Under the pieces are notes generated by a model. It ran no database searches, was not told the DNA's origin, and was given only the letters and a program-made list of their open reading frames with translations. Shown piece after piece: positions 15,301-21,300 of a stretch of DNA of 64,000 nt (positions are counted from its first letter, which is position 1; each line of letters opens with the position of its first letter). The translations under genes were made by a program, and so were the position numbers. The DNA comes from Phylloscopus collybita (Eukaryota; Chordata; Aves; Passeriformes; Phylloscopidae). The stretch lies in NCBI GenBank assembly GCA_027886175.1, contig JAJNNQ010000018.1, positions 18,457,001 through 18,521,000 on the forward strand, read 5' to 3'.

Positions 15301-18300
15301 TACCAGCTTAGATATAGCTAGAAGTCCAAGACCTAGAATTGCTTGAAATTTTGTAGCTAAGTTCTTTGATTACAGTACCCTTAAATATTGCTATTAAACC
15401 ACAGTAAAGGCTCTGTGTTTTAAATTTGCAAAATTCGGTACCTTTTGTTCTAAAAAGCTGGAGGAACACAGTATTTCACATAACCAACCTTGAGAGAGCT
15501 CTAATATTTCTCACTACTGAATGCTCCTGCAGCCTCCGGCCTCCCCTGCCCTGCTTTGAAAACTCTCTTCTATTTGTTACATTGTCTTGCAGCGGAATCT
15601 TAATCACAAGCTCCTGCTTTGTTCCTTTCCTTGTTGTGGCTTTGAGGCTAAGACACAATGGCAAACTCTTAAAGGCAAACAAGGCTCAGAGAATCATAGA
15701 ATGGCTTGAGTTGGAAGGGACCTTAAAGATCATCCACTTCCAGTCCTCCTGCCATAGTCAGACACACCTTTGACTAGACCACGTTGTTCAAAACCTCGTC
15801 CAGCCTAGCCCTGAACACTTCCAGGGATGAGGCATTCCCATCCATTCCCCCTTGTCTAATTTTACAAAAGCTAATTTTACATGCTTTTGTAAAAAGTCCC
15901 TTTCCATCTTTTCTTATAGGCTCCCTTCAGGTACTGGAAAGCATCAATTAGGTCACCTCAAACCCTTCTCTTCTTCAGGCTGAACAATCCCAAATCTGTG
16001 TCATGACACCTTGAGGCTCTTATCTGCTTGTCTTGGCTTGCTCATGTGGGGAGAAAGAATATGGAGAACAAACTGTTGCACTAGGGACAACATTCTACTT
16101 TATAGCTTTGTGGATACTGTTGAATTGGGACTGAGCATTTGGCTTCTAGAGCTGAATATTTAGTTTAAAATTTCACCTTAAAATCACCCAAATATTTACT
16201 GAAAAGTTTTGGCCTTCCTTCTACTGTATGTTAACTGATAGGAGGTTTTTTATTAAACACCTGTTTTACCACAGTGTCACTTGGCACCATTTTTCTCATC
16301 AGCACGATAGTTCTATTTGCAGTCTGCCATTTCACAAGAGGTTAAGATACTGAAATGTACTTCTGCACATCAAGCATTTTCTGTAATTCCTGTTAAATAC
16401 ATCACAGATAAGGTCTTAGTTCTGTGGCTAAATTTTTACTTGTACAGTGTTGTTCTAGATACTTCATCCACTAAAGCACTAGTTATATGTCTTAATAAGT
16501 AGGGGAAAAAAAAGAAGAAAGAAATGGAGATTCTAATTCTTCTAAATTCTTGTTCAAGAAGATCCTGTTCTTTCAGTTGTATGAAAACTGGATGTGAGGG
16601 AGCTGTTTTGCATATGTTATTGTGAAGTGCATTTTGGGTGCATGCATTTCTGTGCCTTTGGGTACTTCTCTTTCACCATGGAAGTTCTGCAACCATTTAT
16701 TTTGTTCTTCTGAGGTGTCTCTGTGGTTAGGCAATTTTTCTGAGTATCTAGGTAGCTAGAATGCTTTAAATTGCAAGGACCTTCTAGTATTAAGAATTTT
16801 CCTTTTGGTAGACTTTGTATTTCAAAGGTTTTAAACAGCTGGACAGAACTTTGTTGCTACTTTTCTTCTTAATAAGTTTTATGTTCTTTTTAGTTTGAGA
16901 TCTAGGCTTTGATTATTAACACTTAGACTTTGATTTCTGTCCTTATTTGACTACATGAAAAATAGAAATGCTCCCTATTCTTTTTCACATTGCCAGAGGG
17001 CTATTACAAGAAATTATTTAAGGGTGCATGCCTACTGATCTTTGAATCAAGTTGCAAAATCTTTTCTATGCATGCGTGCGTGCACACAGTACATCATTCT
17101 TTTATATCTAAAATTGAAAAAAGCATTTTATACTGTGGACTGCGTTTTTTCAGATGCAGCTGCATGCTGCTGAAAATATGTTTTTTCATTTTTTTCTTAA
17201 ATTTCTGGTTTGTGTTTTCAGATAGTACCAGCCCTCTATAAGTATGGTTCATTCTTAGTTATTAAAGCTGAGTATATTCTCATGTGGGTGTATTTTACTT
17301 AAGAGGTTCCACAGACAAATATGAGCTCTTTATCATCTTTAACAGTGAAACAGTAAAGAGAAGCTGGAAAGACAGAATAGGAATTCTTTTCTGTTGGCAT
17401 GTTTGAATTCAAAATTGATTGCCCTCAGTTTTGTTGTAAATATGCAATTCTAGGTTTATTCATTGCTTTCCCTGAAAGTTAGTGAAACACCAGAATGTTT
17501 GGCAGAGCTTTCTGTTCTTGTAGAGAGCTGCATAGGTCTTTTCTATTTTAAAACTTCAATCACTGTTTTTTCAGCACACTTTTTTGGAGATCAGGTTAAC
17601 TTTTGCTTTTGATCACTTCCACATTTCAGCCATCTGTCATTTTTAGATTAGCTTAACAAGACTGACTTTGTGATAAATCCATTACTTTTGTGTAATGAAA
17701 TTACAACCATGCCAGGGAGTAGTCAGTACACTGAGTGTCCAAGTGGAGTATATGTGTGCACGTGTGGTGTCAAAAGTTATGCAAGTGATGAGAAGCCCAT
17801 TTTTGTGTAATGACTATCTCCATGTCAATGATAACCCTTCAGTTTTAAAAATAATTACCGTTAACTTTGTCTTAGTTGCCACCATAGCTCTTGTTTGAGA
17901 AATGAGAACTTTTCTTATCCATCCTGATCTGTAAATAGAGGCTTCCAGTGACTCCTTCCAAGTTCTTGTTTTCAGTCTTAAATTTCGTGTTGCCTTATTG
18001 ATGAAGGCTGTACTTTAAGTGGTGTTATCTGTTGCTAAGGTGCTTCGACATTATTTGGACAGACTGGGTCTGTGGAACATTGGCATCATCGCTGCGGATG
18101 GAGATTGGAACATCTCAAATGAGATGATAATTGATCCCTATCTTAATGATGCTATTGAGGTAGTCGGGTAAGTGTGGGAGAAGGGAGGCATTTTAAACAT
18201 TGGTGTTGCTTCCTCTCTGTGAGTCTTCATCTCCATTTTCAAGAGTCATATATTCTTATTTCATACTTCTTAGCTGTTTCCATTCTTTCCATCATTGTGT

Positions 18301-21300
18301 ACAGTAGTGATGGATTATTCTTTCTTGTCTTTCTCTCTTCTTTGAGTTTAGTGCATATGTAAGCTGACTTTATCATTCTTCCATCATTTCTTTCAAGATT
18401 GCGTTTAGGAGTTGTGTTTTAGGCTTCTTAGCACTACCAAATGATAGGAAACTTCTAACTAATCTGCATGTGCATGTTCCAAGTCAGAAAAACCTTAGGA
18501 TTGAATTCTTGGTCTGCAACTGGTTTTCGTTTTGGGTGAACTTGAACTTTCAGAGTGAAACTTAGCACCCTGGGACTTTCTGTGGCTGCAGCTGAGATTT
18601 TTCTGGTCATATCCTAGAGCTAGAAGTTTCTGTTTCTTGCTTATATCTGATAACAGATAATATTAGAAATGCATGCATTGAAAGTAACATAGGAGTAAAA
18701 ACAAGCACCCAAAGTTTGTAGACTAATATAGCCTATCTCAGTTTTGGCAGCTGGGAATGCCTTCTGTTGGTGTTTCAGCAAATATCAACTGCCTTTACTC
18801 TTGTTCCATAAGACACTTCCTTACTTGCTTCTGGCAACTTATTCTGCTGCTCTTGCTGTCTTTGTAATCTCTGGTTTCTCAAAATTATACATACTTTTTA
18901 AAAAACTACATGTTCCCAGTGGAAATTACGTGTACAGATACAAATTGCTCACTTGTTATCTCATTTATGCTCATTTGTTAACTTGTTTATCTCTGTTGTT
19001 ACCCTTACTGTGATAAGTAACATTCTTGTGGTCACTCATGTACCCTTTATCCTCTGTATGCAAGGAAGTATGATATGCTCATCATAGTTTAAATGAATGC
19101 ATGGCTCAAAGGTTATAGCAGATCCGTTAAGCAGGAATTTTATAAAGAAACTCCTTTTGTATGTGTTGAGCTTGTAAACACCAGTCACCTGAAAGTGGCT
19201 GCCTGAGAAATACCAATTAATAGTGTCAGCATTGACTAACTCATTTGGTTTAAAATAAACTTAAAAATCTTTCTTAAGTTAGGCAAGACTTGCAGCTCAG
19301 CAGGTGCATTAGGAAATGTTTTAGTAATGATTTCTGTGACAATACAGCTTGAGGAATGAATGCACTGACTGTGTACAGCTCTTGTTTCTTTAAGAGCTTA
19401 GCAGAGTCAAGGTTAGGAGTACTTGTTTCTGTTTGTACCTTTAGGAGCACAAACATGTTTTAGTTGTTCTTTAAAATGGAAGTTCTTTTTGTCAGAAGTT
19501 TTTCTTGAATGTCATACAGTTTTTTCCCCAGCTCCCCCATGACTACTGATCACAAAAAATGAAGAGTTAGGTTTTCCTGGGCAGTGGTTTTGTTATCTGT
19601 CAAGAAATTAAGGTTGGAACAAAATGAGAACACCATGTTTCTCAACCAGCGCTGACATAGAGAATTCTTGCTGACCTAGTGAAAGATTATAGTATTTAGA
19701 TGTCTGTCCTTCAAATGCTCAGGTTCAGAAAGTTCATACACATCTTGTAGTTTACCCATCAGCACTGTAACATCTAAGTGGCTGATCTGCAAATAGAGTA
19801 TCTTGCATGAAATGTAATATGCTTTGTCTTTATCTGTACTTTTGTGTCTGTAAGAAGAACAAAGCATTTTGTATGGTAGAAGAAGAAGGTGTCCTTTGAA
19901 GTCACTTTGTGTTTGACAATCTTGTACGGTTTTTTTTTGTAACAGTTGTCCATGTTGCAAAAACATGAATTGAAGCGTTGTAGTTTTTCCAGCTAGTGCT
20001 GAAGAAGATGCTGCCTTTCCCAATATAAAGTTTTGACAATTTGAAAAATAATTTTTTATTTGTCACTTCTCTGTTCTTTGCTCTCCTTTTTTTTTTTCCC
20101 AAGCTGTTGAGGTACACAATGGATAAGCATGGTCTGGAGCAGGTGAGGATCATAGCCAGCGATAATCTGTGGGAGCCCATTTCCTTTGTCATGATGATTG
20201 ACTCTGAGCTCCACGAAGTGATCGATGTGATTGGGTAGGGGGTTCTCTCTGTTCTTCTTTCTTGGTGGTTTGTTTATAGTTTGTCTTCATCTTATTTATA
20301 ACTAACACAGCCAAAGCTTTACCTTTCTGTACTCCTACCTGCAAGAAAAGGATTGATGCTATAAAACTTTCTTACTAACCCACATCAAATCACACAGCTC
20401 TTGTCCCAGTAAGAGCCTCAACCTTGAATTGAATCAGGAGTCTTCTATCATATTGAAGATTCCTCTTGGGCATGGTTGCACTTTTGATGGATTGAAGGGT
20501 TTTTGGACAACACTGCTTATCCTGAGGGCTTTAGTTACTCTAACTGGTATGCAAAAAGTGCTTTAGCTTTACAACTTAGTACACAGCCTTGTAATTTCCA
20601 TTGGTTTGTTACTGAATGTTTGTGACTCAGTAATTAATTTGGGCTGTGATTCTTCTTGAGTTACAATGGCTTGATTCTTAGTTCCTATTTTGTTTTGATT
20701 ACAAATTTGTATTTGGAAAACATGCAACAATCTGACTTATTTTACTAGTTCTGGGTTTTGTCATAATAATATTTTACTATTAGACTAAACTTGAGATTGA
20801 TTACTGACTCGATGGCTGAATTGAAGTCTATGTATGAAATGTTCATTAACTTTTCTTTTTACAGTAGCTTTAAACTTTACTTACTAGGTGCCATAAACTT
20901 GCCTGACCCAATCACATGCTTCAATGTGTCAGTTCCTTGCTTCAGTTTGAGTCTTTTCCATTCATCTTTATATATCTGAACCATAGGAGGTGTAGAAATG
21001 AAGGCTTTTTCTGCAAATACAGATAGGCAGTCAGTGTCATCAACCCTTGCCATCACTCCCTCCCCCCATTCTAAACATGAGCAGTATCCTGGCAATTTTC
21101 ATAGGTGGAGTCTTGGATCATGTCTGGGTGAGGCTCCACAGCTTTTACAATTGTGTTTGCTTAACTCTTTATAAGTGTCAGTTTTACATAACTACTCTGA
21201 TTCAGTCTTATCAAGGAAATCAAATACTCTATTGTGTATTTCAGCTTTTATTGGGCAGGGATATTGACACTTAAGAAACACCTTTTCAGGAGTGTAGGAA

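Follow-up and report, generated by a model that had tools for sequence, protein, structure and literature searches.

Galactocerebrosidase (GALC), a member of glycoside hydrolase family 59 (GH59), is the main enzyme that hydrolyzes the galactolipids of myelin, and it is missing in Krabbe disease. The closest described counterparts of the locus analyzed here are the tandem mutually exclusive exons of vertebrate genes, the GALC of mammals, the duplicated galc genes of zebrafish, and the GH59 enzymes of bacteria. Against these we set the GALC gene of the passerine bird Phylloscopus collybita, contained in a 64,000-nucleotide (nt) stretch of assembly GCA_027886175.1 (contig JAJNNQ010000018.1, positions 18,457,001 to 18,521,000), hereafter the window. 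Two homologous exons, 7a and 7b, lie in tandem between exons 6 and 8 of this gene, and to judge from their sequence they very likely form a duplicated, mutually exclusive pair in a single-copy GALC, one that has existed since at least the ancestor of jawed vertebrates. The GALC of this bird would then probably come in two enzyme forms.

Tandem mutually exclusive exons are already known as a kind. In vertebrates they are adjacent, homologous, similar in length and equal in phase; their isoforms differ in one segment; they are ancient; and their co-inclusion would shift the reading frame. The GALC pair is alike in each of these respects, as are exons 4a/4b of OGDH, an example of the same kind in the available part of PMC7969005. 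Two surveys, in the portions available to us, concern human genes: PMC9741552 finds most human mutually exclusive tandem exon events to be ancient, and in PMC5740500 reads that connect the two exons are admitted only where co-inclusion shifts the frame. The GALC pair, by contrast, belongs to a lysosomal hydrolase, and no mammal was found to have its extra exon. The term "GALC" is absent from the main text of both surveys; because mammals seem to be without 7a, the pair would have been missed by human-centred surveys. No paper describing it turned up in the open-licence literature searched, and it goes unmentioned in the available part of a 2025 study that surveys the exons of 110 GALC orthologs (PMC12008523). 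The GALC pair is new, the kind is not.

Two GALC proteins per animal are likewise present in zebrafish, where the products of galca and galcb are both enzymatically active and lysosomal, as described in the available parts of PMC7218095 and PMC10002607; these are gene duplicates, whereas 7a and 7b represent a choice between exons. Mammalian GALC, as represented by the mouse structures 3zr5, 4ccc, and 5nxb, has the 7b form, and it shares the catalytic residues and the fold as a whole. From bacteria, 80 GH59 loci were fetched; their enzymes are full-length homologues (36-43% identity) and have no exons, yet they contain a segment equivalent to exon 7, which in most of the loci scored is closer to the profile of 7a.

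In the window, a complete GALC gene, its coding part spanning 6155..34511, was modeled on the + strand with 17 coding exons and exon 7a in addition, using tblastn with a human GALC sequence and GT-AG boundaries picked manually. The product containing 7b has 674 amino acids and shares 68% identity with that human sequence across 672 residues. Constitutive exon 6 (14961..14999, +) encodes the IWNER motif with the acid/base glutamate (Glu198, human numbering), and its donor, AAG|GTATGT, is common to both copies of exon 7. Exon 7a (18040..18167, +; 128 nt), modeled from splice sites and homologues, and exon 7b (20104..20234, +; 131 nt), the form known in mouse, are both entered in phase 0 and left in phase 2, and constitutive exon 8 (22450..22605, +) follows with the LWSSED motif and the nucleophile glutamate (Glu274, human numbering). 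The catalytic roles of the two glutamates are those given in the available part of PMC13187500. The locus is single: with only the best candidates scored, all five PF02057 matches in the 1.25-gigabase assembly (517 contigs) fall within the window, as do 15/15 matches of the 7a product, which rules out a second GALC gene or a stray copy elsewhere.

An earlier note on this DNA had described two homologous exons between exons 6 and 8, bounded by GT-AG, with intact frames, equal phases, and about 19 of 43 aligned residues in common. The coordinates, including the flanking exon ends at 14999 and 22450, were verified; both copies have an AG acceptor and a GT donor, and the 19/43 identical residues were reproduced. 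The local BLOSUM62 score of the two peptides, 76, lies far above that of 5,000 shuffles (mean 21.2, standard deviation 4.4, maximum 48; z about 12), and a six-frame scan of 6,384 translated 60-residue pieces against 7b gave scores above 40 only where a piece overlapped 7b or 7a. Chance resemblance is thereby ruled out, and the same scan found no third copy of exon 7 in the window. The note's assignment of the downstream copy to the mammalian form also holds, with 7b matching mouse GALC at an expectation value (E) of 3.7e-10. The upstream copy is clearly diverged, as the note had claimed, since 7a alone matches mouse GALC weakly (E 0.63).

The proposed use of the pair follows from its arithmetic. 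Spliced in alone, 7a gives a complete open reading frame (ORF) of 673 amino acids and 7b one of 674, each with a single terminal stop. With both exons included, the frame shifts and a stop falls after 242 residues, two codons past the 7a-7b junction; with neither, translation stops prematurely after 227 residues. Exon 6 would thus join either 7a or 7b and then exon 8, and because exons of 128 and 131 nt shift the frame when taken together or both skipped, only single inclusion would give the full-length enzyme. The two exons are adjacent, homologous, similar in length and equal in phase, and fit the same flanking exons in frame; the frame shift on co-inclusion is a matter of sequence logic rather than of reads. 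The mutually exclusive use suggested by the earlier note is supported in this way, with the reading frame predicted to enforce one exon or the other.

The same frame shift admits another reading, in which the pair serves mainly as an abundance switch, with both-exon transcripts destroyed by nonsense-mediated decay, along with or instead of the making of two enzymes. The co-inclusion stop two codons past the junction fits this proposal, as does the spacing of the two exons, which at 1,936 nt apart are unlikely to exclude one another sterically. A purine run in intron 6 (16503-16517) could in principle hide the pyrimidine tract of 7b, although it is of low complexity. The protein encoded by 7a, however, is conserved residue by residue as far as sharks, which a poison exon does not need, and we consider a mainly quantitative role unlikely.

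How a choice between two full-length products might be made is suggested by the splice sites. Donors were scored as matches to CAG|GTAAGT over 17 donors, and acceptors as pyrimidines out of 20 over 17 acceptors. The acceptor of 7a (18017..18039, +) has a weak tract with 11/20 pyrimidines, tying for lowest with exon 15, while that of 7b (20081..20103, +) has 20/20 and is the strongest in the gene. For the donors the order is reversed: that of 7a, CGG|GTAAGT (18168..18173, +), agrees with the consensus at 8/9 positions and ties for best with exon 16, and that of 7b, TGG|GTAGGG (20235..20240, +), agrees at 5/9 and ties for lowest with exon 1. Given these complementary strengths, the choice would probably be made by competition between splice sites together with trans-acting factors, with 7b as the default, and the two forms may be used in different tissues or stages.

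Other features of these sites were noted along the way. Both copies of exon 7 have an acceptor ending in AAG (18037-18039 and 20101-20103), whereas the other 15/15 GALC acceptors end in CAG or TAG; this shared peculiarity may go back to the duplication itself or may distinguish exons that are under regulation. The purine run at 16503-16517 is complementary to the 7b tract at 20086-20100 (15 nt, 93%) and may in principle mask the 7b acceptor, although with its low complexity the match is perhaps due to chance. This pairing is one of four inverted repeats found in 15000-22449, none of them convincing as an RNA docking structure.

At the protein level, the exchange falls beside the active site. 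The exon 7 segment sits between the two catalytic glutamates, which are encoded by constitutive exons 6 and 8, and the 7a product of the window keeps both of them in its IWNE and LWSSED motifs. The predicted model of the 7a isoform has the GH59 fold, with predicted local distance difference test (pLDDT) values of 93-98 across 7a, and superposes within 1.1 Å of mouse GALC over 637 residues. In this model, the 42-43 swapped residues account for four elements of the TIM barrel: the last part of helix 4, strand 5, the catalytic-face loop after it, and helix 5; relative to mouse GALC, 7a replaces precisely these elements and is one residue shorter. With both catalytic glutamates in constitutive exons and a model that folds, both products are most likely folded GH59 hydrolases, and their difference next to the active site might translate into a difference in substrate, stability, or contact with a partner.

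It could also be that GALC with 7a folds but is catalytically weak or inactive, in which case a switch to 7a would lower activity instead of adding a second working enzyme. Exon 7a is diverged in the loop on the active-site side and encodes one residue fewer than 7b, and the activities reported for zebrafish and mammals are not linked to any 7a form in the parts of that literature available to us. Against a crippled enzyme stand both catalytic motifs, kept in 152/157 of the 7a proteins checked; the barrel aspartate Asp227, invariant in all 79 aligned rows, bacteria included; and the 12 active-site residues described in the available part of PMC13187500, all of which lie outside exon 7. We judge a weak 7a enzyme to be quite unlikely.

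The distribution of 7a among vertebrates was surveyed by three protein searches, with the 7a segment of the window product (30/30 matches listed), of cod (120/154 listed), and of a chimaera (120/161 listed). The first recovered passerine birds, which gave the closest matches (90-93%), hawks, guineafowl, a lizard, a frog, and many teleosts. Among the matches listed, the cod query added sturgeon, lungfish, geckos, the tuatara, more frogs, a pigeon, and the chimaera Callorhinchus milii, and the chimaera query added sharks, rays, the coelacanth, caecilians, snakes, and the bowfin. The extra exon, which the earlier note had proposed to look for in birds, reptiles, amphibians, and fishes, is thus present at the protein level in all four and, beyond these groups, in cartilaginous fishes. 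All 160 distinct GALC-like proteins retrieved with these queries contain 7a, recognized by a profile rule in 157 and by sequence pattern in the other 3, in which 7b follows directly with a one-residue overlap. None of the 157 segments checked has a stop or an X, a count to be read knowing that the retrieved proteins are predictions and that broken copies of 7a are rarely listed in such databases. No turtle, crocodile, lamprey, or invertebrate appears among the matches listed, and no mammal appears among the named ones, three listed proteins having no species name. Mammals have probably kept 7b only.

These records make it hard to see 7a as a nonfunctional remnant left by an old duplication. 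Such a view could appeal to its weak acceptor and its faint match to mouse GALC, but it is opposed by an open frame, by boundaries that are intact, by conservation all the way from sharks to birds, and by 7a products, apparently spliced, that are encoded on short contigs. Three full-length products (P0066, P0126, and P0152; 667, 660, and 662 amino acids) come with longest contigs of 2740, 2332, and 2250 base pairs, too short for the introns of the gene, so that they probably represent spliced RNA. A dead 7a is, in our estimation, scarcely credible.

A choice set by lineage, with unregulated 7a-only or 7b-only groups that hardly use the other copy, can draw on the fact that mouse GALC is of the 7b form and on 7a records without a label in Trichomycterus (P0087), Protopterus (P0117), Chanos (P0124), and Neoarius (P0155). 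It is countered by the intact presence of both exons in the window and in 11/160 gene models, which carry 7a followed by 7b and show that a single gene has the two of them in teleosts, a gecko, and birds. Many non-mammal public records, moreover, already annotate 7a, often under the name "isoform X2"; this is annotation and not proof, but in the many species concerned it implies another form. We regard a purely lineage-set choice as very unlikely. The lack of an isoform label in the catfish-type fishes Trichomycterus and Neoarius and in milkfish (Chanos) is an observation of its own; a loss of 7b there, or a sharing out of the two forms between duplicated genes, is possible.

The conservation and branching of the two copies speak to the age of the pair. 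The 7a of the window is identical to that of cod at 32/43 positions, frog at 31/43, gecko at 29/43, chimaera at 27/43, and coelacanth at 22/43; for 7b, the counts are 35/44 with pigeon, 31/44 with a teleost, and 26/42 with mouse. In a comparison of 16 selected species, made exon by exon as far as exon 16, conservation of 7a is below that of exons 2-5 and 8-10, about equal to that of exon 11, and mostly above that of exons 12, 13, and 16. A tree was built from 89 exon 7 segments: 42 of 7a (41 from the 160 proteins, plus the window), 9 of 7b, and 38 bacterial. A single branch, with support of 100/100, separates all 42 rows of 7a from the rest, and because chimaera, shark, and ray rows lie inside this clade, the split between 7a and 7b would predate the common ancestor of sharks and bony fishes. 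The old duplication proposed in the earlier note is borne out by this separation, as seen in a short alignment.

Several observations weigh against an ancient, mutually exclusive pair. The acceptor of 7a is among the weakest of the GALC gene. The 11 models with both exons include them in frame by way of a shifted boundary, which we take to be an artefact of automatic annotation. No cartilaginous fish has provided a direct sighting of 7b. The tree comprises only 47 columns, and its bootstrap is not settled; taken at face value, it puts the 7a clade inside the 7b rows of teleosts and makes 7b a grade, an arrangement that is not believable as history, and a tree with 7b held together is not rejected (approximately unbiased test, p 0.407).

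On which of the two copies is ancestral, the evidence is divided. The bacterial GH59 segment is nearer to the 7a profile in 71/77 of the loci scored and, with profiles of equal size (8 sequences each), in 58/77; under a stricter extraction of ORFs, the counts are 53/56 and, with equal-sized profiles, 45/56. The W-x-P of the 7b type occurs in 1/58 bacterial motifs found among the 77 loci. These scores are opposed by the tree, in which the 7b rows are nearer to the bacteria and 7a is on a long branch.

If the two exons are used as a mutually exclusive pair, this lysosomal enzyme would be a clear-cut example of exon choice imposed by the reading frame, with a second form of a barrel segment that has been kept since before the split of sharks and bony fishes and is apparently absent from mammals. 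We venture, tentatively and from sequence, that non-mammal jawed vertebrates might have two GALC enzymes with differing preferences, made by swapping strand 5 and helix 5, and that mammals lost one of them. Were this true, fish, frog, and bird models may differ from humans in their GALC repertoire, and galactolipid turnover and Krabbe disease as known from human and mouse would reflect only half of the ancestral repertoire. For studies of stability and of substrate choice, exon 7a would also be of use as a naturally tested alternative to the part of the barrel next to the active site.

Two minor observations concern the flanks of the pair. The window has no Rfam match at gathering scores; intron 6 holds, at about 15690-16010, a sequence that by eye resembles an avian interspersed repeat, presumably of the CR1 type. 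Exon 8 is 156 nt long, so that skipping it keeps the frame, and in four 7a records, from two eagles, a guineafowl, and a trout (P0007, P0008, P0013, and P0027), the exon 8 segment with its nucleophile glutamate is apparently absent; as predicted from sequence, such isoforms, if real, would be catalytically dead.

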